From Eisenbergiella porci (GTDB taxonomy: Bacteria; Bacillota; Clostridia; Lachnospirales; Lachnospiraceae), in NCBI RefSeq assembly GCF_009696275.1, contig NZ_VUMI01000042.1, positions 1-48,015 of the forward strand: a stretch of 48,015 nucleotides of DNA, read 5' to 3'. The translations under genes were made by a program, and so were the position numbers. The notes beneath the pieces are model-generated. The model saw only the letters and a list, made by a program, of their open reading frames with translations. It made no database searches and was not told the origin of the DNA. Positions 6,682 through 33,581 of the stretch are shown here, piece by piece (positions within the stretch are counted from its first letter, which is position 1; every line of letters begins with the position of its first letter).

Positions 6682-7839
6682 ATGACAGATAAGGACAGAA
6701 TGGAACAGTCGGGGGAGATTGATGAATTCTGGGAGTTGGATGAGGCTTCGGATACTGCTGCCCAGAAGGGTTCCGGGAAGCGGCAGGAGGGGCAGGATAC
6801 TGTCGGCCGCAAAGCTTCCCCGCATAGTACTGCTTCCCGCCGGGGTGTGTCGGGTAAAAATACCGGCAGACGCAGAAAAAGGAAAAATACGGAAACCTAC
6901 GTTCACTATATAATTGCTGCCGTTCTTGCGGCAATGCTGATATTTGCTGTTGTCAAGCTGGTTGTGTGGAATATTGGGAAGGATTCCGGGTATGACCCCA
7001 ATGCGGATTCTTCGGAATTTGAAGTGGAAGCCCTGGATTATATCCAGCCGCTGGATCCAGAGTTGCTTAAAGGGCGGGAGGATGACGGCGTCAACACTAT
7101 CGTCTGTCTTGGGAACCATCCTTTTTCCGATGAACGGGGAAAAGACGGCCTTGCGGAGTTAATTGCCGAGAAGTGTGATGCCACGGTTTATAACGGTGCA
7201 TTTCCGGATTCCTATATTTCTATGAAAAATACCGAGTATACCGACAGCTATCCTCAGGATGCGCTCAGCCTGTATCTGGTAACAGCCTCCATATGCGGCG
7301 GGAATTTTGACCTTATGGAACATGCTGTGGATTTGCTTTCAGAATCTGACAAGGCTTACAGGGAAGCGCTGGATACCCTGAAAAGTGTGGATTTTTCCAA
7401 GGTTGATATGATCGTCATCATGTATGATCTGAATGATTACATGGATAAACGGCCTGTTATGGATGAAAATAATGACATCAACCTGCTTACCTGGAACGGC
7501 GCGCTGAATGCTTCTCTTCAGGAAATCCAGAAGACCTATCCTTACATCCGTCTGGTGGTCCTGTCTCCTTCCTACGGGCAGTTTGAGGATGGTGGCGGCA
7601 AGATGGTTAACGGGGATACGGAGGATTTCGGCAACGGCGTGCTTCCTGATTATGTGCTGCATGAAATTGATGTGGCTATGGCAAACGGGGTTAGTATTCT
7701 TGATAATTATTATGGGACCATTAATGAAGATGAGGCAAAGAATTGCCTGACAGACGGATACCGGCTGAATAAAAAGGGACGGGAAAAGGTTGCGGGGCGG
7801 TTTGCAAAGGAAATTTTTCATGTTGGGGAAGAAAAATAG
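6682..7839 (+). CDS. membrane-anchored SGNH-fold protein, probably non-catalytic
   Basis: A 385-aa protein with a cytoplasmic charged N-terminus, one membrane helix at about 75-95 and an extracellular SGNH-like domain from about 135. It aligns by eye with the SGNH lipoprotein at 24391-25425. There the block I motif is GDSIW and the last block is DGVH; here they read GNHPF (Gly144-Asn145-His146) and DGYR (Asp358, Arg361). The nucleophilic Ser is therefore His and the catalytic His is Arg, while the block III region LNDY is kept. This suggests a pseudoenzyme with a binding or scaffold role. AAAGGAGG lies 7 bp before the ATG. It is monocistronic, with a terminator hairpin downstream. Confidence 0.8.
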   Translation: MTDKDRMEQSGEIDEFWELDEASDTAAQKGSGKRQEGQDTVGRKASPHSTASRRGVSGKNTGRRRKRKNTETYVHYIIAAVLAAMLIFAVVKLVVWNIGKDSGYDPNADSSEFEVEALDYIQPLDPELLKGREDDGVNTIVCLGNHPFSDERGKDGLAELIAEKCDATVYNGAFPDSYISMKNTEYTDSYPQDALSLYLVTASICGGNFDLMEHAVDLLSESDKAYREALDTLKSVDFSKVDMIVIMYDLNDYMDKRPVMDENNDINLLTWNGALNASLQEIQKTYPYIRLVVLSPSYGQFEDGGGKMVNGDTEDFGNGVLPDYVLHEIDVAMANGVSILDNYYGTINEDEAKNCLTDGYRLNKKGREKVAGRFAKEIFHVGEEK

Positions 7840-9956: not shown

Positions 9957-11018
9957 CTAATCATACCAGTTGTCATAAATTGCTTCGTAATCATAACCCG
10001 CCGCTAACTCGCGCAGGTCCTCCAAAACCGCTTTATAATTATCCTCAGTCAGTTCTCCCTCTCCATTTTCAAAGCACTCCACAATATACCGGCAGACATC
10101 CGCATGATAATGCGTATAATCCGCATAATTATTCAGATTACATACGATATCCCTGTTGTTCTGAAAACAGAATACCCTTACATTATCATACGCAAGCAGT
10201 TTTTCCGTCATATAATCCAGTTCTCTGATAACCGCATCCAGCTCCTTCTGCCGCATCACATCATTCCAGTAAAGAATACTGTACGGCGGATACCAGAAAA
10301 TGAATTCCGTTTCCGGATGAGCCTCAACAAAGGGAATAATATTGGCCTCCAGATTTGCCTGAATACCGGACACAAACGCATCCTCCGGCATCTCCTCCTC
10401 CGCTTCCTCCGCCGGAACATAATACATCAGCACATTGGCCTTCGTATAGTACTGATCCGTCCACCACGGCTTATACAGCTGTGTCCAGTCCGTCCTCTCC
10501 GTAGGATCCACCAACGGCTTGAAAATATAATTCAGCAGCACATCCTTATTAAAAAGATACTGCACATTATTAAAAGGATTTTTATCATACAAATATTCCG
10601 GAATCGGATATTTCGTCGTCTCCGTATCCGCTGAAAACGCCCCCTGATCCACGGCCATGAATATTTTTTTCACCGAATCCCCTTTCGCGTCAAAAATAAT
10701 ATCCATTATGTTGGCCTCATCTTTAGGAAACGCGCCGTTATAGCTCAGCTTCACCGTCTGCAGCCCCATCACCTCCGTAAACCAGTCCGTGTCAAAGCTT
10801 GCCGTCATGGAGGAGCCTAACAGAACACTGTCATAATCCAGCCGGCGGGCCATCCCCGGATTCTGGCTCAGCTGATTATCCACCTTATAGGGAAAATAAG
10901 CCAGGGGTTTATGATACTGAAAAAAAGGATCCACATATATCACTATAGCAGCTATCGCAAGAAAGCCTGCCAGGAGAATACTGCAAAACAAGAGCAGCCA
11001 TCTTTTACAAGGTTTCAT
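9957..11018 (-). CDS. DltD/AlgJ-like SGNH protein, partner of the adjacent MBOAT
   Basis: A 353-aa protein with an N-terminal signal-anchor helix and an extracytoplasmic SGNH-like domain. Block I is GSSMT (about residues 68-72) and the terminal block is DYTH (Asp300, His303), so the catalytic residues look present. Such proteins pair with MBOAT O-acyltransferases and help transfer acyl groups to surface polymers (AlgI/AlgJ, DltB/DltD). The start at 11018 is preferred because AGAGG lies 7 bp upstream; an in-frame ATG at 11033 has a poor site. The MBOAT gene precedes it in the operon. The polymer and acyl group are unknown. Confidence 0.8.
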   Translation of the reverse strand: MKPCKRWLLLFCSILLAGFLAIAAIVIYVDPFFQYHKPLAYFPYKVDNQLSQNPGMARRLDYDSVLLGSSMTASFDTDWFTEVMGLQTVKLSYNGAFPKDEANIMDIIFDAKGDSVKKIFMAVDQGAFSADTETTKYPIPEYLYDKNPFNNVQYLFNKDVLLNYIFKPLVDPTERTDWTQLYKPWWTDQYYTKANVLMYYVPAEEAEEEMPEDAFVSGIQANLEANIIPFVEAHPETEFIFWYPPYSILYWNDVMRQKELDAVIRELDYMTEKLLAYDNVRVFCFQNNRDIVCNLNNYADYTHYHADVCRYIVECFENGEGELTEDNYKAVLEDLRELAAGYDYEAIYDNWYD

Positions 11019-11090
11019 CCACATACCTCTCATACATTGTCACGGACAAGCCGCACTCCCTCATACCCGCTTCTCTGAAAACAGCCCGCA

Positions 11091-12599
11091 TCAGAAATTA
11101 AAATACAGGAAACTGCTGACCCCTGAAAGCGACAGCACACACCACAGAAAGAGCCCTGCCGTCACCAGCGCATTCCAGGCCTTGGGCCGGAACCTCACCG
11201 CCACTTCATCCGCATTCGGTGCAAAAAACACCACCGCCATAGTCACCACTGTAATGATACCTCCCAAATACATCTGACTGTATGGCAGGCTGTCCAAATG
11301 CAGCAGCTTTATCACATACCAGAATTCATCCAGATTGAAGGACTGCATCATCGCCTCCGCAGGAAGAGCAATCCCACCCGTAAACAAATGCCTGAAAATT
11401 TCCAGTGCCTGTCCCACTGTCTCGGATCGGAAAAAGACACAGGTCAGACTGAAATAAACAAAGGTAAATAAAACCCCGGCAACTTTAACCACCTGTCCTC
11501 TAACCGGCCCTGCTGTCTTTGCTTTGCCGCTCTGTTCCCTCTTTTCCTTCTGATGCAGCTGCCACATCCGGGTTACTATGTACAGAACCCCCTGCGTCAC
11601 ACTCCACAATACAAAAGTCCATCCGGCCCCATGCCAGATACCGCTGAGCAGATAAATCAGGAACAAATTAAAGTACATCCGTCCTCTGCCCTTTCGGTTC
11701 CCGCCCAATGGAATATATACATTTTTGGTAAAAAAACGGCTCAGTGTAATATGCCACCGTTTCCAGAAATCCACGATGCTCACAGCCTTATACGGCGAAT
11801 TAAAGTTCACAGGAATCTCTATCCCAAAGAGCCAGCCCAGCCCCCTGGCCATATTACAGTAGCCACTGAAATCAAAATACAGCTGCAACACATAAAAAAG
11901 AATCAGCAACGCACTGTCCACTCCGCTTAAGTTCAGAACATTGGCATACCCCCAGTTCACCGCTTTCCCAAACGTATCCGCGACCAAAACCTTCTTCACC
12001 ATTCCCAGCGTAAATAAAAATACGCCCCCGGCAAACCGATCCCAATCCAGCTTCTGCTTCCCGATTTTATCAAACTGCGGCATCATTTCATTGTGGTTCA
12101 CAATCGGTCCCGCTATCAGCTGCGGGAAAAAGGAGACAAACAGCGCATAATCCAGAAAACTGCACTCCCTGATTTCACCCCGGTAAGTGTCCACAAGAAA
12201 ACCAATCTGCTGGAAGGTAAAAAAACTGATTCCCAGCGGAAGCAGGATTCCCTTCAGTAAAAACGAAGTACCAAATACGGCATTTACATTTTCAATAAAA
12301 AAGTCAAAATACTTGAAATAAAAAAGAATTCCCAGATTGCACAGAACACCCGCCGCCATCATTATACGGCTCCTGTTTGGCCCCGTTGCATTTATCAGCC
12401 GAAAGCAAACATAATTAAAAAGAATACTGAAAATCATAATCAGCAGATAGCTGGGATTAAAATACCCATAAAACCACAAAGAAAAGCCTGTCAGCCACAG
12501 CTTGGCAGGCACAGCCTTCCCCCAATGGGCGAACAGATAAAACCCGCCCAGGCAAAATGGTAAAAACAGGAACAGAAATATATAAGAATTAAAAAGCAT
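11091..12599 (-). CDS. MBOAT O-acyltransferase 1 (AlgI-like)
   Basis: A 502-aa polytopic membrane protein of the MBOAT family. It carries family hallmarks PLGISFFTFQQ (about 121-131), VSFFPQLIAGPI (about 155-166), WKRWHITLSRFF and the catalytic His in GIWHGAGW (His323). MBOATs move an acyl group from a cytoplasmic donor through the membrane to an extracellular hydroxyl. It is followed at 70 bp by its SGNH partner. Its length fits the AlgI/DltB range. The donor is not indicated by its neighbours. Confidence 0.9.
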   Translation of the reverse strand: MLFNSYIFLFLFLPFCLGGFYLFAHWGKAVPAKLWLTGFSLWFYGYFNPSYLLIMIFSILFNYVCFRLINATGPNRSRIMMAAGVLCNLGILFYFKYFDFFIENVNAVFGTSFLLKGILLPLGISFFTFQQIGFLVDTYRGEIRECSFLDYALFVSFFPQLIAGPIVNHNEMMPQFDKIGKQKLDWDRFAGGVFLFTLGMVKKVLVADTFGKAVNWGYANVLNLSGVDSALLILFYVLQLYFDFSGYCNMARGLGWLFGIEIPVNFNSPYKAVSIVDFWKRWHITLSRFFTKNVYIPLGGNRKGRGRMYFNLFLIYLLSGIWHGAGWTFVLWSVTQGVLYIVTRMWQLHQKEKREQSGKAKTAGPVRGQVVKVAGVLFTFVYFSLTCVFFRSETVGQALEIFRHLFTGGIALPAEAMMQSFNLDEFWYVIKLLHLDSLPYSQMYLGGIITVVTMAVVFFAPNADEVAVRFRPKAWNALVTAGLFLWCVLSLSGVSSFLYFNF

Positions 12600-21765: not shown

Positions 21766-23229
21766 ATGCTATTTAACTCTTTCAGCTATGCCCTTTTTCT
21801 CCCCATTGTTTTTATTCTATACTGGATAATGCCGCAGAAATTCCGCTGGATTATTCTTCTTCTTTCCAGTTATTATTTTTATATAAGCTGGGGGCCTCAG
21901 TATGTTGCAGTGATACTTCTTACCACACTTGTTTCCTATGCTGCTGCTTTGTTAATGGAAGGAAGACATAACGGTACACTTTATTCCAGGACGCTGCTTA
22001 CGGTCTCGGTAATAATTTGTATAGCAATTTTATTCTTTTTCAAATATTTTAATTTTTTTACAGAGAATATTGCTTTGCTGTTTCAGAAAATATCGATTCC
22101 CATACAGCCGTTTACGTTGAAGCTGGCGCTTCCTATTGGGATATCTTTTTATATTTTTCAGGTCATTAGTTATCTGGTAGATGTATACCGCGGTGATATT
22201 CATGCAGAAAAACATTTAGGCATTTATGCCGTTTATATTTCTTTCTTTCCCAAGGTTATGCAGGGACCTATAGAAAGAGGAAAAAAACTTCTTCCCCAGC
22301 TGCACTCCAGACATACTTTTCAATATGGACAGGCTTCATATGGCCTGAAACAAATGGCCTGGGGCTATTTCAAGAAACTGGTTCTTGCAGACAGCCTTTC
22401 CGTATATGTAAATCAGGTATATAATGATTTACCTTCCTATAAAGGCCTTTCGCTTATTCTTGCCACATTTTTCTTTGCCATACAGCTTTACTGTGACTTT
22501 TCAGGCTATACCGATATTGCGCTTGGTTCTGCCAAAATACTTGGAATTAACCTGACACAGAACTTCAAGGCTCCATACTTTGCCTCTTCTATTAAAGATT
22601 TCTGGGGAAGATGGCATATTTCCCTGTCCTCCTGGCTGCGGGATTATATTTATATACCTTTAGGCGGCAACAGAGTTGGAAAAGTAAGACATTCTTTAAA
22701 CATACTGATTACCTTTCTGGTAAGCGGATTATGGCATGGCGCAAGCTGGAACTATGTATTATGGGGCGGACTTCATGGAGTATTCCAGATTATTGAAGGT
22801 TTTTTCCCATGGAATTCTAAAAAAAGCCCCTTCCAAAGGAATAAGCATTATCACTTTCTGCTATGCCTTATCACTGTTCCATGTACCTTCCTGCTTGTTT
22901 GCTTTGCATGGATATTTTTCCGTGCTGTTACCATCCAGGATGCATTTTATGTGATTTCCAATATGTTTGACGGTATCACACAATTTCCCACATATATCCA
23001 GGATTGTGCGTTGCAGATGGGACTGACCTTCAGTCATTTGTCATATAACTGCCTTCCGCTTGTTCTTCTGTTTTTGTATGATTTGGCATCCTTAAAAACT
23101 GATGTTATCACATTTATTTCCAGACAGCGCTTCTTTATCAGATGGCCTGTTTATTTATTCCTGTTACTGGTTATCCTGCTTTTTTCTGAGAAAGGAGTAT
23201 CCACAGAATTCATTTATATGCAATTCTAA
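21766..23229 (+). CDS. MBOAT O-acyltransferase 2 (AlgI/DltB-like)
   Basis: A 487-aa polytopic MBOAT. Signature segments are LPIGISFYIFQ, ISFFPKVMQGPIERG, DFWGRWHISLSSW and the catalytic His in GLWHGASWNY (His324). Twelve bases separate it from the SGNH partner downstream. It is transcribed opposite to the flanking operons, as a self-contained two-gene acylation unit with its own promoter and terminator. Confidence 0.9.
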   Translation: MLFNSFSYALFLPIVFILYWIMPQKFRWIILLLSSYYFYISWGPQYVAVILLTTLVSYAAALLMEGRHNGTLYSRTLLTVSVIICIAILFFFKYFNFFTENIALLFQKISIPIQPFTLKLALPIGISFYIFQVISYLVDVYRGDIHAEKHLGIYAVYISFFPKVMQGPIERGKKLLPQLHSRHTFQYGQASYGLKQMAWGYFKKLVLADSLSVYVNQVYNDLPSYKGLSLILATFFFAIQLYCDFSGYTDIALGSAKILGINLTQNFKAPYFASSIKDFWGRWHISLSSWLRDYIYIPLGGNRVGKVRHSLNILITFLVSGLWHGASWNYVLWGGLHGVFQIIEGFFPWNSKKSPFQRNKHYHFLLCLITVPCTFLLVCFAWIFFRAVTIQDAFYVISNMFDGITQFPTYIQDCALQMGLTFSHLSYNCLPLVLLFLYDLASLKTDVITFISRQRFFIRWPVYLFLLLVILLFSEKGVSTEFIYMQF

Positions 23230-23241
23230 GATAAATAACTT

Positions 23242-24324
23242 ATGAAATCTTTTATTGTTAAAAGTGTCCTTGCTGTTTGCCTTACACTTTGCTGCCTGTT
23301 TTATCTTGATATTATGTATGAACAGAAAACCAGCGATCCAATAGCTGAAGTCAATAAATTTAATTTTGTTCCGGAGGGCATACAGATTGCAAACATGGGA
23401 AGTTCTCATGGTGATGCCGCCTTTAACTGGGATTCCCTGACTAAGGAACGTAACTTTAAATGCTTTAATTTTGCACTTGCCAGCCAACCCTATAAATATG
23501 ACTATGCCCTTCTTAACATGCATCAAAATGACTTAGCTGAAGGAGGCATTGTATTTATACCGGTTTCCTACTTCTCTTTTAACTCAGAGGCGGTAACTCC
23601 GGAGGATATTGAAGCAATCAGCGTACGTTACTACCGGATATTATCTCCGCAGTATAATCCGGATTACAGTCTGTACAAGGATCTTGTGGCAATTCGCTTT
23701 CCTATACTTTCTGCCGGTGATAAAATCTTTGAGCTGTTTAAACCGCCGATTACCTTCCCATCCTTGTCGGAAAACAGGCAGAATATTGTTTATGCCGCAG
23801 AAGCAAACATGGAAGAAGGGATGTCCGGCAACACGATATCTGACAACGAAATGGGGCTTTCCTCCGAAAACATACCTACCCCAGACCCTGCCCCGGTTTC
23901 CCCTGAAGAAATATATGGCGCCGAAAAAATACAGGAATTTGAAGCCAAGGGTTATGCCAGATATCAGAGGCATTTTGAAAATAAAACCGATTATTTTCAG
24001 GATGATAAAAAACAGGAATTAATTAATATGATTCTGCTATGCAAATCAAAAAAGGTTACACCGGTTTTAATCACCACCCCTTTTACTGTTTATTACAATC
24101 AATATGTCTCCGACCAGTTTTTATATGACTTTTATACTACTATTAATGAAATAGCAGTAACACAAGGAGTATCCTATTATGATTATTCTCATGATAAACG
24201 TTTTGAAACCAATCTCCAGTATTTTGGAGATGCGGACCACTTAAATCCGGAAGGTGCCATTTATTTTACAAATCTTTTAATGGAAGAAGTTCCTGAACTA
24301 AGCGCCTATCTGGCCTCTCATTGA
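23242..24324 (+). CDS. DltD-like SGNH protein, partner of MBOAT 2
   Basis: 360 aa with an N-terminal signal-anchor (about residues 5-24) and an extracytoplasmic SGNH-type domain. NMGSSHGD gives the nucleophile region (Ser54/Ser55) and GDADHLN the terminal Asp330/His333, so the catalytic set appears intact. A Pro/Glu-rich insert lies at about 200-230. It resembles the DltD/AlgJ class that accepts or directs the acyl group delivered by an MBOAT. There is no clear ribosome binding site, so it is probably coupled to the MBOAT gene. Confidence 0.8.
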   Translation: MKSFIVKSVLAVCLTLCCLFYLDIMYEQKTSDPIAEVNKFNFVPEGIQIANMGSSHGDAAFNWDSLTKERNFKCFNFALASQPYKYDYALLNMHQNDLAEGGIVFIPVSYFSFNSEAVTPEDIEAISVRYYRILSPQYNPDYSLYKDLVAIRFPILSAGDKIFELFKPPITFPSLSENRQNIVYAAEANMEEGMSGNTISDNEMGLSSENIPTPDPAPVSPEEIYGAEKIQEFEAKGYARYQRHFENKTDYFQDDKKQELINMILLCKSKKVTPVLITTPFTVYYNQYVSDQFLYDFYTTINEIAVTQGVSYYDYSHDKRFETNLQYFGDADHLNPEGAIYFTNLLMEEVPELSAYLASH

Positions 24325-24390: not shown

Positions 24391-25425
24391 TTAATAATAA
24401 ACAGAGTTTCCGGAAACCTCACCAGGTTTTCCATATTTTAGACAGCTTGCAACTGCTTTTGCATATAGGGAGCGTCCTTCTATCGTAAGATGAACACCAT
24501 CCTCCAAATACTGATCTGCCGTATATGGAGTTATCCCCATCGTACTGTATGCATCAATATATAATGTGTTATTTGTTTCCGCAACATTCCTTGCTGCATT
24601 CGCATACTGTGTCAGCGTTCCCTGTCCGTAATCCTTCATATTACTGTCGGTGTACATAGCCCCATCTTTATAAAACTGACAATAGGTAGGTGAAATCAAT
24701 AGTACCTTAGCCTGCGGACTGATCTGACTTAACAATAAAATCGCATTCCGCAAAGCACCGGCATAGCCGTGTGCATCCCAACTGTCACTTCCCTCGACTG
24801 CTATCGGAGCACCGGAAAAATAATCATTCAACCCATAAGCAATAATATAATAATCAACGGTCTGAGGATTTACGTTCCGAATAACACCTCCGGCAGGATA
24901 ACCTTCCAAAAATTCAGGATCAACCTTTCCGGCAAGTATATTGCACATTCCCATAAGTGATGAAGAATCCCACTTTTCAAAATTATCCGGTGACTCCCCA
25001 TCCTTCAATGTTGCTCTGCTGCCGCCTACTGCACAATTATACACATCTGCATTCATATAATTAGCAACCTGGGCAGCAATACCCGTATCCCCTCTGTCCA
25101 TATCCCAGATACTGTCACCAAACACCACAATATTCAGTCTGTCTTCCTGAGGAACCTCCTCCTGAACCGTTTCTTCCTGCGGCACGGTTTCCGTAGCCTG
25201 CACCATTTCCGTTTCTGCGGGCTGACTTTCTTCCGCAGTAAACTTCTCCAGCTGCTGCTTCAATTCTTCGTTCTCCGCTGCCAATGATTCAATCTGTGCC
25301 TTTAACTCATCAATGTCATCCGTATCTGTACTTGCCGTTTCTTGTTTTCCACAAGCAGAGAACATGACTGACACTACCAACAGCAAAGCCAGCAAGGTCT
25401 TCTTTCTTTTTATCCGTATATCCAT
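24391..25425 (-). CDS. SGNH/GDSL lipoprotein with coiled coil
   Basis: A 344-aa secreted lipoprotein. The signal peptide ends in lipobox FSAC (Cys25). An N-terminal coiled coil (about 37-63) and a Glu/Gln/Thr-rich linker precede a GDSL-type SGNH domain with GDSIW (Ser105), LNDYF and DGVH (Asp309, His312), so it looks active. It is predicted to be an extracellular esterase or acetyl/acyl-transferase acting on envelope glycan. It is the last gene before the terminator at 24331-24381. The protein at 6682-7839 is its catalytically altered relative. Confidence 0.85.
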   Translation of the reverse strand: MDIRIKRKKTLLALLLVVSVMFSACGKQETASTDTDDIDELKAQIESLAAENEELKQQLEKFTAEESQPAETEMVQATETVPQEETVQEEVPQEDRLNIVVFGDSIWDMDRGDTGIAAQVANYMNADVYNCAVGGSRATLKDGESPDNFEKWDSSSLMGMCNILAGKVDPEFLEGYPAGGVIRNVNPQTVDYYIIAYGLNDYFSGAPIAVEGSDSWDAHGYAGALRNAILLLSQISPQAKVLLISPTYCQFYKDGAMYTDSNMKDYGQGTLTQYANAARNVAETNNTLYIDAYSTMGITPYTADQYLEDGVHLTIEGRSLYAKAVASCLKYGKPGEVSGNSVYY

Positions 25426-25544: not shown

Positions 25545-26489
25545 TCACATCTCCTTTATTTTAACCTGATATCTGTCTTCAATATCATTCAGCTGAAGTT
25601 CAAAATCTCTTCTTCCTTTTATACCGATATTGTGAAGAATCAAACCTGCAAAAACTGACTGCAGCGCCGCAAGCTCCACAAAGCCGCAGACAATAAGCGT
25701 GGGAAATTTATCCACCATTCCGGTTTTTAAAAAATCAATAAATACTGGGACAAAAAAACCAACGGAAAGAACCGTCAGAACCACAGCTACAATACAGAAA
25801 AATGCTAACGGCTTATATTGTCTGAACATTTTCAATATAGTATTCAAGACCTTTATGCCATCTGTATACGTATTCAGTTTGGATTCACTCCCCGCAGGCC
25901 GATCCCGATAATTCACCACCACGTTATCCACCTGCATATTATTATAGACCGCATGAATTGTCATTTCCGTCTCTATCTCAAATCCCTTGGATAATACAGG
26001 AAAGGTCTTAACGAACTGATAGCTGAAAGCACGGTAGCCCGTCATAATGTCCCTTATATCCGAATGAAAAAGCATATTAATGCTCGCTTTTACCAGGCCA
26101 TTTCCCATGTTATGAAATGGGCGCTTGTTCTCCTGATAATAAGTAGAGGACAATCTGTCTCCAACTACCATATCCGAACCTTCCAGCAATACTTTATCCG
26201 CCATTTCCCTTGCATATTCCAATGGATAGGTATCATCCCCGTCAATCATGATATAACAGCGCGCATCAATTTCACGAAACATCCTCCGGATTACATTGCC
26301 CTTTCCCTGTTTTCGTTCATAACGGATAACAGCGCCTGCCTTACTAGCCAGTTCCACTGTCCTGTCACTGGAATTATTGTCATATACATAAATCACGGCT
26401 TCCGGAAGCGCCTCATGCGCATCCTTTACCACCTTTTCTATTGTTTTCTCCTCGTTATAGCATGGAATTAAAACTGCAATTTTATCCAT
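25545..26489 (-). CDS. polyprenyl-phosphate glycosyltransferase (GT2 with two TM helices)
   Basis: 314 aa. GT-A start AVLIPCYNEEKTI, motif DNNSSDRT, catalytic-type MIDGDDTYP, then two membrane helices after about 225 (AFFCIVAVVLTVLSVGFFV; VELAALQSVFAGLILH). This is the GtrB/DPMS layout for making polyprenyl-phosphate hexose. The ATG at 26489 is preferred because GAGGAG lies 6 bp upstream; an ATG two codons earlier is too close to it. It follows the third MBOAT gene on the same strand. Confidence 0.85.
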   Translation of the reverse strand: MDKIAVLIPCYNEEKTIEKVVKDAHEALPEAVIYVYDNNSSDRTVELASKAGAVIRYERKQGKGNVIRRMFREIDARCYIMIDGDDTYPLEYAREMADKVLLEGSDMVVGDRLSSTYYQENKRPFHNMGNGLVKASINMLFHSDIRDIMTGYRAFSYQFVKTFPVLSKGFEIETEMTIHAVYNNMQVDNVVVNYRDRPAGSESKLNTYTDGIKVLNTILKMFRQYKPLAFFCIVAVVLTVLSVGFFVPVFIDFLKTGMVDKFPTLIVCGFVELAALQSVFAGLILHNIGIKGRRDFELQLNDIEDRYQVKIKEM

Positions 26490-26525
26490 ATCCATCTCCT
26501 CACAGGTTACTGTGCCTAACCAATT

Positions 26526-28091
26526 CTAGAACCCCTGGTAAATAAATTCCGCCGTGCTAAAGCCCGGCCCATAATATCCCAGCAAAATCACATAGAATAG
26601 CAATGCATACCAGATGAGCCATCGGACAGGCATCGCTTTTTCCCTAATCCGTTCCCTCACATCGCCCTTACGCTGCATTAACGATACACCAAACAGAATC
26701 AGCAGGGATACGACCGCAATCGTAAACTCTATCCAGTCCAATCCCAATTCAAAAATCTGCCCTCCGATTAAAATCCCCGGATTAAACACAGTCGCAGCTG
26801 ATTTCAACATTCTCCATGCGTCTCCCACGCTGGACGCCCTGAAAAATACAAACCCAATATTTACAAGGAAAAAAGTTCTGACAATCCGTAAAATATCCAC
26901 TGCACGAGCTTTAGGATTGATGTGCAGTTTTTCCATACATTTTAAATACCAAGGCTCAAGCAGTTCGCCGCTGACAATATAAAACCAGTGCAGCAGACCG
27001 GAACCAATAATATATTTCCAGTCCCCGCCATGCCAAATACCTACTGAAAACCACAAAAGAAACATACCGGCAAATGTTGTTATCTGCTTTCCTCTCTTTT
27101 TTCCAAACTTCTTTCTCATATCCTTACTTAGTTTGGTAAAAAAAGAAGAACGCAGCAAGGGATAAAAAACATACTCTTTCATCCACACACCCAACGAAAT
27201 ATGCCATCTGCGCCAATACTCGGATATATTTTTAGAAAAAAACGGTCTTCTGAAATTTTCCGGCAGCTTCAGTCCGAAGGTCTGGGCCAATCCTAATACA
27301 ATATCCATACCACCGGAAAAATTCGTATATAGCTGAAATGCAAAAGCTACTGTTCCTAACCAGATATATACCCCGGGATATGCCTCGTAATTACCATAAA
27401 TCGTATTAACAATCAGCGCCATCCTCTCAGATATCACCAGTTCCTTAAAAAAACCCCAAAGCATCCGCTGCATACCTTGCGTTACTTGTTTATAATCAAA
27501 CGGATGCGGTTCAAAGAACTGTTCCCCATCCTCTCTGTAACGTAAAATAGGGCCTGACACCATCACAGGAAAAAACATCCCGTACAAAGCCAGCTTGGCT
27601 GGATTTTTCTGCGGCACAGCAATTCCAAAATAAACATCTACAACATATCCTATTAACGAAAGCGCATAATAGGATATGCCTAAAGGTACGAGCCAGTTAA
27701 AACCGGAAAGAATATCTTTCCCGGCGCCAAAGAAAGAAGCAGCGGCATTAATCGTATGAATACCAAAATTAATATATTTCAGAAAAAATAACGCCGCCAC
27801 ATTTGCAAAGATCACAAAAAGAAGCGCCGCTTTACGCCGCTTCGCCGCATCCTTCCCTCGTTCCTTCAGCAGGGCCTCTTCTTCCTGTGCTTTCGTCATC
27901 CAATAAATTCCGGCAAAGCTTACCGCCACAGCCAGAAGCGGATAAAGTATCAGGATCGCGTTTCCGGAACAAAGATAATAAAAAATGCTGGCTATAAGGA
28001 GAACTCCCCACTGCCACCTTTTGGGGAGAACATAATACAAAATTAAAACTATCCCATAAAATACAAGAAAGTAAAAGGATGTTATACCCAA
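26526..28091 (-). CDS. MBOAT O-acyltransferase 3, linked to ACP and FkbH-like genes
   Basis: A 521-aa MBOAT with LVPLGISYYALSLIGYV, FFPVMVSGPILRYRE, EYWRRWHISLGVWMKEYVF and the catalytic His in VGIWHGGDW (His354). It has a longer N-terminal cytoplasmic charged loop (about 68-88) than the other two. It is immediately downstream of the acyl carrier protein gene and the FkbH-like gene, which suggests that its donor is an acyl-ACP. That parallels DltB, which uses the carrier protein DltC. Confidence 0.9.
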   Translation of the reverse strand: MGITSFYFLVFYGIVLILYYVLPKRWQWGVLLIASIFYYLCSGNAILILYPLLAVAVSFAGIYWMTKAQEEEALLKERGKDAAKRRKAALLFVIFANVAALFFLKYINFGIHTINAAASFFGAGKDILSGFNWLVPLGISYYALSLIGYVVDVYFGIAVPQKNPAKLALYGMFFPVMVSGPILRYREDGEQFFEPHPFDYKQVTQGMQRMLWGFFKELVISERMALIVNTIYGNYEAYPGVYIWLGTVAFAFQLYTNFSGGMDIVLGLAQTFGLKLPENFRRPFFSKNISEYWRRWHISLGVWMKEYVFYPLLRSSFFTKLSKDMRKKFGKKRGKQITTFAGMFLLWFSVGIWHGGDWKYIIGSGLLHWFYIVSGELLEPWYLKCMEKLHINPKARAVDILRIVRTFFLVNIGFVFFRASSVGDAWRMLKSAATVFNPGILIGGQIFELGLDWIEFTIAVVSLLILFGVSLMQRKGDVRERIREKAMPVRWLIWYALLFYVILLGYYGPGFSTAEFIYQGF

Positions 28092-28130
28092 AATTTAGTT
28101 CCTTTCCGGATTATTTCTCTTCTGTTCCGC

Positions 28131-28376
28131 TCAGTCATTTAACTGGCTTATTATAATATCTGCCATCTCTCCCACATTTTTCATAGACACTACCTGTCCC
28201 ATATTAAATTTTACACCAAATTCCTGCTCCACTGCTGCTAAAAGATTAATATGCTCCAGGGAATCCCAGTCTTCAATATCATTTGATGTAGTGTTTTCTG
28301 TAACACTAATGTTTTCATCATCGAAAACATCCCTGAATACTTCATTTAAAGTTTCAAAAACTGCTTCTCTTGTCAT
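28131..28376 (-). CDS. acyl carrier protein
   Basis: An 81-aa acidic protein with the carrier-protein motif DWDSLEH; Ser39 is the predicted 4'-phosphopantetheine site. The usual four-helix length fits. The ATG at 28376 is chosen because GGAGG lies 5 bp upstream and the length is standard. An in-frame ATG at 28412 would overlap the FkbH-like gene. It lies between a FkbH-like protein and an MBOAT, so it probably carries the acyl group from one to the other, and is distinct from fatty-acid ACP. Confidence 0.9.
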   Translation of the reverse strand: MTREAVFETLNEVFRDVFDDENISVTENTTSNDIEDWDSLEHINLLAAVEQEFGVKFNMGQVVSMKNVGEMADIIISQLND

Positions 28377-28404
28377 TTTTTCCTCCATCCCACCGTATAA
28401 CGGC

Positions 28405-30201
28405 CTATTCATTTTCCATAATTTTTATATATTTATTTTTATTCTCGTAGTCCTTTGCTATTTCAAACCTCCAGACCGTGTTTCCTTCTGTACTACTTAT
28501 CTGTTCGAATCCCTGAAGGCCATAAAACTCTTTTACCATCCCATTCTTAGATGTAGGATAATAATAACCATAGACAGTAGTTATACCTCTTTTTTTGCAT
28601 TCTCCAACCAAACAGTCCATCATGGCGAACTCCATATCACGTTTCAGAACCCTGCAGCTCATCAGCCAAAGATCAATATGAAGCGCTTTTACCGGCCCTT
28701 CTTCCTCATGGCCGATGATAACTGAGACCACGCCATTATCGCCGAATTTATCTTCCAGCTTGCCATACAGGGTAACATACTCCTTCTTTTGGGCAAGCAG
28801 CTCAATTTCCGCCTGTGAATACCGTCTGGTCGTCAGGTTAAACTGATTGCTCTTATTCGTTAACTGGGCAATTCGGGCCATATAAAGGGCTTCAAAGGGC
28901 CTTATAACCGCACGCATTCCCAAAGAAGTCAGATATTCACCATAATCGGTGAAGGACGCCTGCTGCTTTGTCCGCAATGCGTTAGCCTTATACATTTCAT
29001 TCCGCTTCCGGTCATCCTCCGAAAGCTGTGTGACTTCAAAATATCCATTATGGTCAAGAACCCTGATATACTGTTCCGGAGTTCCAATTTCGGGAACCGC
29101 GGCACCCTGTGCATTTTCCCGGACAATTTCCCGCTCTGCCGGATTATCATCCGCAAACACAAGACTATCCGGCAATATGTTAAGCTCGTGAGCAATCGCC
29201 AGCATATTTTCACTCTTAGGCTCCCAATTCGCTTTAATGATAATAAAATCATCCGGGTTAACCAATCCGTCAGGATGGTTCAGGCCAGCAAGCGCATTTT
29301 CTTCCTCATTTTTAGAATTTACATTCAGCATAACGCCTATATCTTTCAGAGATTTAACATATCCCTGAAATTCCGCATATACCTGTCCCATCGAGGTTTC
29401 CGGTCCGATTTCCAGATTTTCCACCCCGTCATCTCCCACAATACCTCCCCATAAAGTATTATCAAGATCAAGCACCAGTGATTTCTTATTTTTACCATAA
29501 ATAGACTTGATAATATTAGCAATATTGTGTGTAAGCCAGGGTACCGCCTTCAGGCACAGCGCATACTTATACATGTGCCAGTAAAAAGTATCCGCCCATT
29601 CATCCAGGCCGTAAACCGCTGACTGATAATTAATGTCGTTAATGTAAAAATTACTGTTTTCTCTGGCATATGCGGCAAATTTTTCATTCAAACGGTTGAC
29701 AAAAAAGGTCCTGCCTCCAGAATTTACACAATCCTGATTTCCCAACAACCTGTAAAACGGGTACTCCATATTATTCTGAATAATAGGACAACTCCAGTTT
29801 TCCCTGATTTTTTCCCACATACTGCGGAAGTGTTCATATTGGTGCTCCAGCAGCTCTTCTATCATTTCCGGTGTATCCGTTACGGAAGGCCATGTGGAAA
29901 TATTTCTGTTACTTGTATGGACATAAACTATATCCGGCCGAAAGGCATTAAGGGCTTCATTTCCAAATACAGCATCTTCCCAGTATTGCCCGTATTCCGA
30001 TTCATAAAAAGAAGGCTCTATCCCCTGATTAAGAAGAAACAATTCCAATATGCGAATGACGTCATGGGTGGTACTGCCTCCCAAAACCGCAATATTTTTC
30101 TTAATACGGCGGCTTCCGTCGGATAACAGCTGTCTTTTCAGGCTTTTGGATTTCTTTAAAATGAATTCACTGTCAAATGGATATTCCAGTTCTTTTAACA
30201 T
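28405..30201 (-). CDS. FkbH-like HAD-IIIC protein (SGNH-like + HAD + GNAT-like)
   Basis: 598 aa in three parts. An N-terminal BF1531/SGNH-like domain carries GGSTTHD (41-47). A HAD phosphatase-like core has the catalytic DLDNTLWGG (Asp245, Asp247). A C-terminal GNAT-like domain spans about 430-590. FkbH proteins of polyketide pathways convert 1,3-bisphosphoglycerate to a glyceryl-ACP thioester. With an ACP and MBOAT directly downstream, this protein may load a three-carbon acyl group for transfer to the glycan. GGGAGC precedes the ATG. The real substrate is not shown by the sequence. Confidence 0.85.
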   Translation of the reverse strand: MLKELEYPFDSEFILKKSKSLKRQLLSDGSRRIKKNIAVLGGSTTHDVIRILELFLLNQGIEPSFYESEYGQYWEDAVFGNEALNAFRPDIVYVHTSNRNISTWPSVTDTPEMIEELLEHQYEHFRSMWEKIRENWSCPIIQNNMEYPFYRLLGNQDCVNSGGRTFFVNRLNEKFAAYARENSNFYINDINYQSAVYGLDEWADTFYWHMYKYALCLKAVPWLTHNIANIIKSIYGKNKKSLVLDLDNTLWGGIVGDDGVENLEIGPETSMGQVYAEFQGYVKSLKDIGVMLNVNSKNEEENALAGLNHPDGLVNPDDFIIIKANWEPKSENMLAIAHELNILPDSLVFADDNPAEREIVRENAQGAAVPEIGTPEQYIRVLDHNGYFEVTQLSEDDRKRNEMYKANALRTKQQASFTDYGEYLTSLGMRAVIRPFEALYMARIAQLTNKSNQFNLTTRRYSQAEIELLAQKKEYVTLYGKLEDKFGDNGVVSVIIGHEEEGPVKALHIDLWLMSCRVLKRDMEFAMMDCLVGECKKRGITTVYGYYYPTSKNGMVKEFYGLQGFEQISSTEGNTVWRFEIAKDYENKNKYIKIMENE

Positions 30202-30289: not shown

Positions 30290-31654
30290 TTAATATTCCG
30301 TCCAGTCTTCCCTGGGGACACCGGAGACACTGTCAAATCCATAATATGTGGCATATGCATTATTCAGCCAATACTCCGGACTTTCTTTGATATCCGAATT
30401 ATAACCATCACTGTATTTTGTCTCAAAATCAGGCCTGAGCATAGGTACCGTAACCTCCTGCACACCATTTGCCGCCTGTTCGGTAAGATACACATCCCGT
30501 TCATGATATTCCCTGTAAATTCTGGCAAGATTCGCCCCGCTTTCCATGTAAGTAAAAAACATTATCAGGCACATCACCGAAATTATCCCTGCCTTCAGAC
30601 AGTGGAAAACAGCCTCCCCTTCATCTACGTGTACATAAAACTGAACTACAGCTATTATCAAAAAAATCCCTGCACCGAAATATGCTCTCGGCATGGGTTC
30701 AGGCGTCAGTATCAAAGCATAACAGGTAGCCAAAAAAGTAATTCCCCATAGGAAACCATCCCGGCAATCACTCCACAATACTTTTATATTTTGTTTCTGG
30801 TATTTAACAATGATAACCAGCAGCATGCCAATAATAAGCAATACCAAAAAATTATTCCTGACTGCTAAAGTTACTTTCTGGAACCGGGATACCAGTGCAA
30901 AAAGTCCGGTATGCTCTTCTTCCTGAGCCAGGGCACGGACCGCATTTCCCGGTGCCAGAATCATAAACAAAAATCCGATTGCCTGCCCTGCAATTCCGGC
31001 AGTCATCCACCATTTTTTCTTTTTGCTTCCTTTATTATTGTAAAAATAGAATCCGGTAAGCAGGAATGACATAAGAATTCCGCCACCGGAGGTATTCTCA
31101 TTACACCAACCTGCTGCAATACCGGAAACAAATAGCAATACCACCCATATTATTTTGTGTTTTATAAAATCCACACGTTTAAGACAAAACCTGTATAATG
31201 TCAAAAAAGCAAGGATAATTGTCGAGCCCCACAAATAATTGCATGCCCCTGTTTCCCACAACACAGTCTGTCTGAAAACCACCCCAAACATCCATATCAA
31301 CAGATTGATCAGAAGATAAACTGAAACATCATTCTTTTTTCTGCGCTCAATATTTAAATAAATTAATAGCGTAAGGCCTACGAAAACAAATGAATTAAAG
31401 AAATTAAATATTATTTTATCGCCAAGAAGAAAACATCTGAGAATAAGATGGCTTACTGAACGGCCCGACCATGTCATATACTGATGGTATTCCTGCTGAA
31501 CCAGTCCTGCAAAACTTCCCGCTGACTGGGCTTCCTTTGCATAAAACAGATCGTCCGACATCATTGGTGTAAGCATATTAAAAATAAAGATTAAAACAGC
31601 TGATATAATAACTGTCATGATAAACAGTTTCTGCTGGTTTTTTTTCGATTTCAT
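30290..31654 (-). CDS. DUF6056-like multi-TM protein, possible GT-C
   Basis: 454 aa with about eleven membrane helices. After the first helix comes MMSDDLFYAKEA (Asp-Asp in the first outer loop), then MTWSGRSVSH and RQTVLWETGACNYLWG, features I associate with DUF6056-type membrane proteins. A large extracytoplasmic C-terminal tail follows. Its ATG overlaps the stop of the YdjC gene (TAATG). Position next to a GtrB-like GT2 and a deacetylase suggests that it transfers a lipid-linked sugar on the outer face. Confidence 0.65.
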   Translation of the reverse strand: MKSKKNQQKLFIMTVIISAVLIFIFNMLTPMMSDDLFYAKEAQSAGSFAGLVQQEYHQYMTWSGRSVSHLILRCFLLGDKIIFNFFNSFVFVGLTLLIYLNIERRKKNDVSVYLLINLLIWMFGVVFRQTVLWETGACNYLWGSTIILAFLTLYRFCLKRVDFIKHKIIWVVLLFVSGIAAGWCNENTSGGGILMSFLLTGFYFYNNKGSKKKKWWMTAGIAGQAIGFLFMILAPGNAVRALAQEEEHTGLFALVSRFQKVTLAVRNNFLVLLIIGMLLVIIVKYQKQNIKVLWSDCRDGFLWGITFLATCYALILTPEPMPRAYFGAGIFLIIAVVQFYVHVDEGEAVFHCLKAGIISVMCLIMFFTYMESGANLARIYREYHERDVYLTEQAANGVQEVTVPMLRPDFETKYSDGYNSDIKESPEYWLNNAYATYYGFDSVSGVPREDWTEY

Positions 31655-32568
31655 TACTTCTCCTCAGTCCTCATTGACATAACCGCATTCTTTTCAATCC
31701 GCCTGCCATCTGAAAGATAAAATTGTTTTGCACCTTCACTTACAAATTCTTCCCCTGCTTCCTCTTCCAGCAGGCTTCCAGGATGAAACAATATTTCAAG
31801 GCAGCGTCCCTTGTCCTCCGCTTTTTTCTTCATATATGGCAGTAAAATCCCTATCCTGTCCCTGTCCATATGTCCACTCATCAGAACTCCCCAAAGAAAC
31901 ATCGGTGAATTTTCTGACTGCCAGGAAGGCCTGTTCTTCTTGATTGTTCTTTCCATTCCCAGTGCATAAAAATTCAGCAAAAGATTTTTAATCCAGTTTA
32001 TTGGTCTGTAGCTTTTCCATAAGGAAACCTGCCTTAGATAAGGCATTATTGGTTCTTTGGTAATCCTGATATACGCTGTCCTGTAGTGTTGTTCTACTAT
32101 AACCTCCAACAATGCCCAATAGCATAGTGGAATCATCTGTGTATGCTGGTGGCCGTCAAACCTGAGAGGCAAATCCTCACCAAACTTCTCCCTGAACCGC
32201 TCCGTCTGCGCTTTAATCTCTGCTTTTAACTCCTTTTTGATTGTCATGAACTTTTTAGGGGAATAATTCCAATGAAATAAATCCCACCAGGTAATATTAA
32301 AATATCCCTGTCCGTCCACCAAATGCTTTACTTCTTCCGGATCAGCCACACAATGCCCTTCCATAAAATTAAGATGTACCGCCAAAAGCGGCTGGCAGGG
32401 CCATTCTGCCTTTTCCTTCTGATATTTTTCTGCATATGCATCGTAACAGCTCATATTCGTCAGAACACTGATACTATTTAATTTACCAGCCCTCAGGCAT
32501 TGTAGTATATCCTCCGATGTATTGGGGGACAGGGCATAATCATCCGCGTGAATATCTATTTTACTCAC
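31654..32568 (-). CDS. YdjC/ChbG family carbohydrate deacetylase (NaxD-like context)
   Basis: 304 aa. The YdjC metal and catalytic residues are present: HADDYALS (Asp9, Asp10), AVHLN (His65), and FDGHQHTQM (His140, His142). The family removes N-acetyl groups from sugars. Here the ATG overlaps the stop of a GtrB-like glycosyltransferase (ATGA), and an ArnT-like gene lies just beyond. In Francisella a YdjC-type enzyme (NaxD) deacetylates a polyprenyl-phosphate amino sugar made by FlmF2 before transfer by FlmK, so a similar role is inferred. There is no signal peptide, consistent with cytoplasmic action. Confidence 0.85.
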   Translation of the reverse strand: MSKIDIHADDYALSPNTSEDILQCLRAGKLNSISVLTNMSCYDAYAEKYQKEKAEWPCQPLLAVHLNFMEGHCVADPEEVKHLVDGQGYFNITWWDLFHWNYSPKKFMTIKKELKAEIKAQTERFREKFGEDLPLRFDGHQHTQMIPLCYWALLEVIVEQHYRTAYIRITKEPIMPYLRQVSLWKSYRPINWIKNLLLNFYALGMERTIKKNRPSWQSENSPMFLWGVLMSGHMDRDRIGILLPYMKKKAEDKGRCLEILFHPGSLLEEEAGEEFVSEGAKQFYLSDGRRIEKNAVMSMRTEEK

Positions 32569-33581
32569 TCCGTGTCAACCTCTTCTTTTTCTTCCTGTTC
32601 ATCAGTTTCCGCTTCTTTCCATATAATGGATTCAATTATATAGCGGGGACGAGCTTTGGTTTCCAGGTATATTTTCCCAACATATTCACCAACAATACCC
32701 AGAGAGAAAATTGTCAGTCCTCCCATCAGCAGTGATACCACCAAAGATGTCGTGTACCCGGGTACGTTTCTTCCTGAGAACCAGTCAACAATACAATATA
32801 TAATCATGGCAAAACTGAACAAGCTGACCAGAACCCCCAGAACAGTTATTATCTGTATCGGCCTGGTACTCATGGATGTAATCCCATTTGTTGCAAGTGT
32901 CATCATTTTTCTCAATGTATATTTGGACTGGCCTGCCTCTCTTTTTTTTACATCAAAATACACTACATCTGACTGGAATCCCATAGTAGGGATCAATCCA
33001 CGTAAAAACAGATTTACCTCCCGGTATTCTGCCAGCGCATCCAATGCACGTTTTGACAGAAGGCGATAATCCGCATGGTTGCTCATCACATTGCATCCCA
33101 GCAAGTGCATAAATTTGTAAAACATGTTTGCGCTGAGCTTTTTAAACAGCCCATCCGTATCACGATCATTTCTTACTCCATACACGATTTCACAGCCTTC
33201 CTGATAGCACTTGACAAATTTATCCAGCGCTTCTATGTCCTGCTGCAAGTCGGCATCTATGGTAACTACCATGTCAGCATGCTCCCGGGCTGCCATCATT
33301 CCCGCTAAAATCGCACTTTGATGACCATAGTTCCTTGAAAAACAAAGGCCGGAAAAAATGCTGTCACAGCGGCATAAATCACTAATAATTTTCCAGGTTT
33401 TATCACTGCTGCCGTCATTCACAAAAATAATTTTACTTTTTACAGATATAATATTCTGTATAGTCATTCGTCTCAGTTTATCCCGCATTACCTCGGCAGT
33501 GTGCGGAAGCACTTCTTCTTCGTTATAACAAGGTACCACCAAATACAAAATACCGCCGGCCCTTTTATTTTCCATTTTCAT
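32565..33581 (-). CDS. GtrB/ArnC-like polyprenyl-phosphate glycosyltransferase
   Basis: 338 aa. The GT-A domain has YLVVPCYNEEEVLP, IFVNDGSSDKTW, CFSRNYGHQSAIL and TIDADLQQD, the full GtrB/ArnC/DPMS set. Two C-terminal membrane helices lie at about 250-315, and an acidic tail follows. It is the first gene of the eight-gene operon and follows a good promoter at 33622-33650. It probably makes a polyprenyl-phosphate sugar (an N-acetylhexosamine is suggested by the deacetylase that follows). Confidence 0.9.
   Translation of the reverse strand: MKMENKRAGGILYLVVPCYNEEEVLPHTAEVMRDKLRRMTIQNIISVKSKIIFVNDGSSDKTWKIISDLCRCDSIFSGLCFSRNYGHQSAILAGMMAAREHADMVVTIDADLQQDIEALDKFVKCYQEGCEIVYGVRNDRDTDGLFKKLSANMFYKFMHLLGCNVMSNHADYRLLSKRALDALAEYREVNLFLRGLIPTMGFQSDVVYFDVKKREAGQSKYTLRKMMTLATNGITSMSTRPIQIITVLGVLVSLFSFAMIIYCIVDWFSGRNVPGYTTSLVVSLLMGGLTIFSLGIVGEYVGKIYLETKARPRYIIESIIWKEAETDEQEEKEEVDTE

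Follow-up and report, generated by a model that had tools for sequence, protein, structure and literature searches.

Contig NZ_VUMI01000042.1 of Eisenbergiella porci (assembly GCF_009696275.1), analysed here over positions 1 to 48,015 of its forward strand (48,015 nucleotides, hereafter the window), carries a five-gene cassette that is well supported in silico as a Dlt-like system, in which a membrane-bound O-acyltransferase (MBOAT) would be fed by a carrier protein and a putative glyceryl-loading enzyme of the FkbH type would take the place of DltA. A first-pass annotation had proposed that a system of this kind places a glyceryl or other C3 ester on an envelope glycan, and the proposal gains support from four sides: the conserved trio of FkbH, acyl carrier protein (ACP) and MBOAT, a carrier dock resembling that of DltB, a sister clade of MBOATs linked to ligases, and the residues of the FkbH-like protein. 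In our judgement, it is very highly probable that the three proteins are functionally coupled. The gene order reported by that annotation was also confirmed, with FkbH, ACP and MBOAT lying consecutively on the minus strand, followed by a family 2 glycosyltransferase (GT2) and an SGNH lipoprotein:

28405..30201, minus strand: FkbH-like protein of 598 residues, predicted glyceryl-ACP synthase (TIGR01686 and FkbH_N above cut-offs, residue alignment)
28131..28376, minus strand: dedicated ACP (PF00550; DSL Ser39 when read from the inner ATG at 28376; the reading frame is open to 28412)
26526..28091, minus strand: MBOAT_C, a carrier-type MBOAT (PF03062; His297, His354; C-terminal FIYQGF with Tyr518; no Gly-Gly loop)
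25545..26495, minus strand: GT2c, predicted polyprenyl-phosphate glycosyltransferase (AglJ/dolichyl-phosphate type, below the cut-offs of those models)
24391..25425, minus strand: SGNHb, SGNH/GDSL lipoprotein, candidate extracytoplasmic acyltransferase partner or esterase (PF13472; S105, N200, D309, H312)

The genes are tightly packed, with 28 bases between the FkbH stop and the inner ACP start, 39 between ACP and MBOAT, 30 between MBOAT and GT2c, and 119 between GT2c and SGNHb. The 6.1 Mb genome holds a single FkbH gene and six MBOAT genes, three of the latter in the window.

The FkbH-like protein and its carrier

The FkbH-like protein scores 264.8 bits against TIGR01686 (cut-off 146.65) and its FkbH_N domain 38.2 bits (cut-off 27). 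The three-domain architecture and DLDNTLWGG motif noticed earlier both stand, the protein being composed of FkbH_N, HAD-IIIC and C-terminal domains with the motif at residue 245. When 35 FkbH proteins are aligned, it matches 59 of 60 near-invariant columns (the sole mismatch is V314 in place of leucine), including the HAD-IIIC residues D245, D247, S296, K329, D351 and D352, as well as C516 in the SCRV motif of the C-terminal domain; the HAD residues are those that serve catalysis in HAD proteins. Because C516 is invariant in all 35 sequences, we infer that this cysteine carries the acyl group. The alignment includes a tetronate-type member from Methylosinus, encoded in a cluster that resembles tetronate operons in its KSIII, ACP, E2-like and hydrolase genes. 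The loading of a glyceryl group from 1,3-bisphosphoglycerate by FkbH is described in the available portion of PMC7489565. The closest solved sequence is Bacteroides fragilis BF1531 (3slr; 3e-48), deposited as uncharacterised.

The ACP matches PF00550 with 25.4 bits (cut-off 20.8). The serine of its DSL motif, numbered 39 in the earlier annotation, fits a start at position 28376, an inner ATG closely preceded by GGAGG; the longest open reading frame, starting at 28412, would make it Ser51. Many relatives of this ACP are 78–85 residues long. No KSIII, polyketide synthase (PKS) or dehydrogenase gene was found in the cassette, the 35 modelled genes of the window having been assigned with Pfam (18 genes) or by eye (the others), and a polyketide or tetronate context was rejected since no KSIII or PKS was seen.

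MBOAT_C resembles DltB at the carrier dock

MBOAT_C scores 43.9 bits against PF03062 (cut-off 27). The histidine at position 354 singled out earlier was verified and is invariant across 32 aligned sequences, as are F516, I517, Y518 and F521 of the C-terminal FIYQGF. A motif of this kind, referred to here as the shuttle motif, is present in 79 of 80 MBOATs without Gly-Gly (DltBs not counted). According to the accessible part of PMC12148441, the tyrosine in the C-terminal FXYXXF of PatA is acetylated and the group is then handed to PatB, DltX acting likewise in the Dlt system. One MBOAT_C protein, found in loci L118 and L151, ends in NDVCDRQE and carries no shuttle motif, unlike its close relatives.

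An AlphaFold2 model of MBOAT_C (pLDDT 87) finds its best fold match in DltB (6bug; TM 0.60 by query and 0.75 by target length), and TIGR04091 is its nearest named family. These likenesses would fit a D-alanylation (Dlt) system whose DltA has been lost or unlinked. This explanation is, however, very improbable: MBOAT_C reaches only 140.1 bits against the DltB model (cut-off 375), FkbH occupies the place of the ligase, and the fused shuttle motif is absent from three true DltBs. Moreover, the best DltA match in the whole genome scores 248.2 bits against a cut-off of 559.85 and lies in open frames of 2524 and 553 residues on another contig. With DltA and DltB both below their curated cut-offs, Dlt proper was rejected.

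The portion of PMC11035591 available to us lists Met302, Val305, Ile306 and Met309 of the horizontal helix as DltC contacts on DltB, together with salt bridges to Lys312 and Arg317, and a similar DltB-DltC interface is modelled in the corresponding part of PMC9338922. The Gly-Gly loop of other MBOATs falls at this contact site. At DltB positions 305–306, G-G stands in all 59 Gly-Gly MBOATs; the 72 MBOAT_C proteins have L (70), M or Q followed by R (66), K (5) or X, and three true DltBs have V followed by L or F. Among 142 pooled MBOATs, from which identical sequences and MBOAT reading frames shorter than 330 residues had been dropped, Gly-Gly is absent from every one of the 43 that have an ACP within 1 kb, and 0 of the 59 Gly-Gly MBOATs have such a neighbour. 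By sequence, MBOAT_C is thus like DltB and unlike carrier-free MBOATs at the carrier dock, and the absence of the Gly-Gly loop argues against acyl-CoA as its donor. The MBOAT of L003 reads SLGGNRKG, with the Gly-Gly loop present. For contrast, the window itself contains two MBOATs with the loop, each beside a DltD-family or DltD-like protein:

21766..23229, plus strand: MBOAT_B, with Gly-Gly loop, adjoining a DltD-family SGNH protein at 23242–24324
11091..12599, minus strand: MBOAT_A, with Gly-Gly loop, adjoining a DltD-like protein at 9957–11033 (no Pfam match, GSS motif only)

Carrier-type MBOATs in separate lineages

Kinship among the pooled MBOATs inflates these counts, and the tree of the proteins therefore matters. 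The MBOATs of L103 and L105, which are encoded with FkbH and ACP in alphaproteobacteria, group with the Gly-Gly clade of MBOAT_A (support 98/98 in a first tree and 100/99 in a second), separate from both the MBOAT_C group (100/100) and DltB (100/100). The MBOAT of L162, which has no Gly-Gly, is likewise placed among Gly-Gly MBOATs. The position of a further member from Tistrella (L109) is unsure because of its very long branch, and this protein was excluded from the second tree.

The FkbH-linked MBOATs have a sister clade of 9 rows (support 95/88) in which a stop-free stretch of 75–91 residues with a carrier-like DSF motif occurs in 9 of 9 gaps read. A ligase frame is present in 7 of 11 stretches, and two of the other four stop at a contig border. 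When six of these ligases were scanned, an amino acid adenylation domain was the best match and DltA the second, with 0 above the DltA cut-off. The combination of ligase and carrier suggests exchanges of loading enzyme within a single clade of carrier-fed MBOATs. As a separate observation, seven loci (L179, L180, L203–L206 and L209) hold an MBOAT with fused shuttle motif, a carrier and a DltA-like ligase, an arrangement that is Dlt-like but not Dlt; a DltD-like gene adjoins the set in L203, and L179 and L119 encode the same MBOAT. Four DltB-like MBOATs with Gly-Gly (L175–L178) showed no ligase pattern and no convincing carrier in the short flanks examined.

The trio is retained among relatives, also when unlinked

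A scan of species genomes with FkbH gave 484 relatives, of which the best 80 loci, mostly titled Lachnospiraceae, were read over up to 10 kb on each side. Being the nearest relatives, these 80 overstate the frequency of linkage in general; some contigs are also short. By blastp, ACP is present in 73 loci, MBOAT_C in 63, GT2c in 47, SGNHb in 39 and all five genes in 36, and by hidden Markov model 63 of the 80 have an ACP no more than 400 bases away from FkbH. The earlier annotation had made its proposal hinge on a conserved cassette order. Among close relatives the order holds: the strict FkbH-ACP-MBOAT_C succession on one strand, with gaps of at most 500 bases, occurs in 27 of 80 loci, and 36 more have the trio otherwise arranged (63 of 80 in any arrangement).

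Seven loci have FkbH without an ACP (L030, L032, L033, L035, L036, L041 and L059), and in five of them a Gly-Gly MBOAT_A directly follows FkbH. All seven genomes nevertheless contain a single FkbH (1e-15) and, elsewhere, one good ACP (69–75% identity) beside the best MBOAT_C (52–60%), so that the trio is retained in these split genomes though it is unlinked. Ten more loci have FkbH and ACP with no MBOAT_C in reach, and their genomes were searched with MBOAT_C at 1e-70. Two (G515 and G516) contain an orthologue of 60–61% identity elsewhere, and six (G518–G523) a relative of 38–42% that the tree places in the FkbH-linked clade. The same search in eight additional FkbH genomes found MBOAT_C-type proteins in G083 and G051. 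Chance neighbourhood of the three genes was rejected in view of their recurrence in relatives and the split genomes, and their joint occurrence on plasmids (below) speaks against it as well.

FkbH-ACP pairs in other company

In a phylum sample of 398 genomes there are 16 FkbH places in 15 genomes, one of them (G271) broken and under the cut-off. Most of the places with no MBOAT in the stretch pair FkbH and ACP with other enzymes, so that the pair is a general supply module, with the MBOAT as one customer. Among plasmids, 107 records match FkbH at 1e-20; ten were inspected, and ACP, FkbH and MBOAT occur together in four, all alphaproteobacterial: Rhodobacteraceae SC52 (L103), two Sinorhizobium meliloti records (L105 and L108, the latter unannotated, its genes located by blast) and Tistrella (L109), where the annotation places the ACP 132 bases from the MBOAT. 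The neighbours of these four MBOATs gave no Pfam match, and only that of L105 resembles a DltD-like protein of the window (23%).

Other surroundings were also recorded. In L014 and L015 (G073 and G102) five genes are lined up, for a NeuA-like cytidylyltransferase, FkbH, ACP, a GNAT-family protein and a NeuB-like protein (identified with Pfam for two L014 genes and by eye for the remainder), an arrangement that makes a candidate route to N-glyceroyl nonulosonic acids. In 2019 the genetic basis of N-glyceroyl substitution in one Tannerella forsythia strain was called a major challenge, in the available portion of PMC6388019; FkbH-ACP loci suggest where to seek the enzymes behind N-glyceroyl sugars. 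Five loci (L087, L088, L090, L098 and L099) have FkbH-ACP directly before phosphofructokinase-like and DnaX-like genes, assigned by eye, with no MBOAT in the locus. On a Niveispirillum plasmid (L104), FkbH-ACP is followed by a WcbI-family capsule enzyme and a short-chain dehydrogenase/reductase (SDR) gene.

The company of GNAT, WcbI, KSIII/PKS or no recognised transferase in such loci would suit an explanation in which FkbH-ACP makes something else, such as a natural product or a sugar N-acyl donor, while the MBOAT beside it works as a conventional O-acetyltransferase that depends on acetyl-CoA. We consider this improbable, given that MBOATs near an ACP lack Gly-Gly without exception (43/43) and Gly-Gly MBOATs near one are absent (0/59), and that in the seven split genomes the ACP stays with MBOAT_C and not with FkbH.

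The export side

SGNHb matches PF13472 with 54 bits (cut-off 32.9), and its S105, N200, D309 and H312 are invariant in 26 aligned sequences, giving a full triad. Among the 63 loci with MBOAT_C, SGNHb at 30% identity or more occurs in 37 and a DltD-like GSSP protein in 15, never both, with neither in 11; matches below 30% were dropped, as in L039, where a GSSP protein is accompanied by an SGNHb match of 26%. This mutual exclusion weakly suggests that the two proteins do the same job. Elsewhere in the window (6682–7839, plus strand) lies a relative of SGNHb (26.6% identity) in which the G-D-S, N and D-x-x-H patterns were not found and which is possibly inactive.

In 37 of the 63 loci the gene immediately downstream of MBOAT_C is GT2c. 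Together with the likeness of SGNHb to esterases, this linkage would agree with a scheme in which the chemistry is as proposed but the acceptor is a polyprenyl-phosphate sugar that the GT2 makes; this sugar would first be acylated and then be moved to the polymer by a membrane glycosyltransferase, while SGNHb trims esters. The 15 loci with a GSSP protein and no SGNHb at 30% identity or more point weakly the other way, to SGNHb as a replacement transferase, and we regard the lipid-linked acceptor as unlikely.

Two further genes on the same strand complete the context of the cassette:

30290..31654, minus strand: DUF6056 membrane protein, directly upstream of FkbH
32565..33581, minus strand: second GT2, PgfS/ArnC-like

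Observations that weigh against the proposed system

Several results count against a Dlt-like role for the cassette. FkbH-ACP often serves other enzymes, and an MBOAT lies in the stretch for only 3 of the 16 FkbH places of the phylum sample: the window, L162 (an MBOAT without Gly-Gly beside a DHHW/AlgX-type neighbour) and L160 (an MBOAT with Gly-Gly). Of the genomes searched with MBOAT_C at 1e-70, G517 and G524 yield ligase-clade MBOATs only (the G524 locus, L042, is a short contig with N, and the search of that genome gave a relative of 33% identity only), the search was empty in G069, G070, G086, G327 and G455 (5 of 18 FkbH genomes), and G005 gives only a Gly-Gly MBOAT, near which its FkbH-ACP lies (L160). 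At the dock, the hydrophobic residue at DltB position 305 is not universal; this marker was dropped because C2 MBOATs carry S or A there, and the absence of Gly-Gly alone is general. The distribution of the loop can be read as at least three independent losses of Gly-Gly in carrier company, DltB counted, but this is only a reading, given the kinship of the pooled MBOATs and the lack of a root in the trees. On the export side, SGNHb has an SGNH fold whose nearest solved structures are esterases, so that SGNHb is a candidate acyltransferase at most.

Finally, in several relatives (L154, L161, L168, L169 and L171; Pfam for L168 only, the others by eye) ACP and FkbH have MaoC-like and SDR genes close by, and the unit may therefore be processed. 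Glyceryl-ACP could then be dehydrated and reduced to lactyl-ACP before export, with the MBOAT transferring lactate, and L168 and L169 do hold an MBOAT_C-type protein. The cassette of the window has no MaoC-like/SDR pair, however, and a search of its genome for relatives of the MaoC protein of L168 found none, an empty result that alone is not telling; a lactyl cargo is rather improbable.

Proposed mechanism

On the glyceryl reading, 1,3-bisphosphoglycerate would be the source of a glyceryl group that FkbH passes to the ACP phosphopantetheine, as the family and residues of FkbH suggest. Glyceryl-ACP would then dock on the cytoplasmic face of the MBOAT at the replaced Gly-Gly loop; the replacement is seen by comparison, and docking there is predicted from DltB-DltC. 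Using His354, the MBOAT would shift the acyl group to its own Tyr518, which lies in a motif that is present, by a reaction modelled on PatA and DltX. An SGNH protein may finally esterify the group onto an extracytoplasmic sugar of an envelope glycan, presumably the product of the glycosyltransferase, UDP-glucose dehydrogenase and epimerase genes nearby. Glycolysis would thus supply the acyl group, with no ATP-dependent activation of a free acid.

The identities of the cargo (glyceryl, or perhaps lactyl in certain relatives) and of the acceptor glycan are both inferred from these data. We judge it highly likely that the cargo is a C3 hydroxy acid, and the acceptor is likely an envelope sugar; in E. 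porci the cargo is probably glyceryl. That a C3 acyl group is produced in carrier-bound form and exported by the cassette along the entire route set out above is a reasonably likely proposition. The broader idea stands at about even chances: carrier-fed MBOATs may constitute a general acyl export route with interchangeable loading enzymes, comprising an FkbH clade for glycolytic C3 acids, a ligase clade probably for amino acids and an independent alphaproteobacterial recruitment, all without Gly-Gly.

If the proposal is correct, FkbH, known from antibiotic pathways, would gain a role at the cell surface. The broader idea would further imply that glycerate or lactate esters occur on the surface glycans of many gut Lachnospiraceae, their supply tracking glycolytic flux. 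The absence of one loop would also offer a sequence marker for carrier-fed MBOATs. In the open-access literature searched, we found no report of the predicted coat ester in gut bacteria and no precedent for FkbH in polysaccharide pathways or in gellan glyceryl transfer, and FkbH and MBOAT appear together in two papers only, by their titles on suomilide and aeruginosins.

Comparison with known systems

The closest parallel is the Dlt system (DltA, DltC, DltB, DltX and DltD), which likewise combines a loading enzyme, a dedicated carrier, an MBOAT with a catalytic histidine and an SGNH protein, and whose DltB, the nearest fold of MBOAT_C, has a carrier dock without Gly-Gly. In the cassette, however, FkbH replaces the ATP-using ligase, a C3 hydroxy acid would replace D-alanine, the shuttle tyrosine is fused to the MBOAT in place of DltX, and the DltB model stays far below its cut-off. 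PatA-PatB and other MBOAT-SGNH pairs share the C-terminal FXYXXF motif and have an SGNH partner, for which SGNHb is the candidate here, but differ in that the donor of PatA is acyl-CoA, whereas MBOAT_C lacks the Gly-Gly loop and comes with a conserved, dedicated ACP.

The glycerate-utilisation operons of tetronate pathways and the methoxymalonyl-ACP genes have the same FkbH residues and an adjoining ACP (available part of PMC7489565). Unlike them, the cassette has no KSIII, PKS or dehydrogenase, and the predicted fate of its acyl group is export on a glycan. The suomilide and varlaxin clusters also unite an FkbH domain and an MBOAT; in the accessible portion of PMC10143770, however, FkbH is a domain of a non-ribosomal peptide synthetase and the MBOAT is assigned to peptide acylation (suomilide) or glycosylation (varlaxin).

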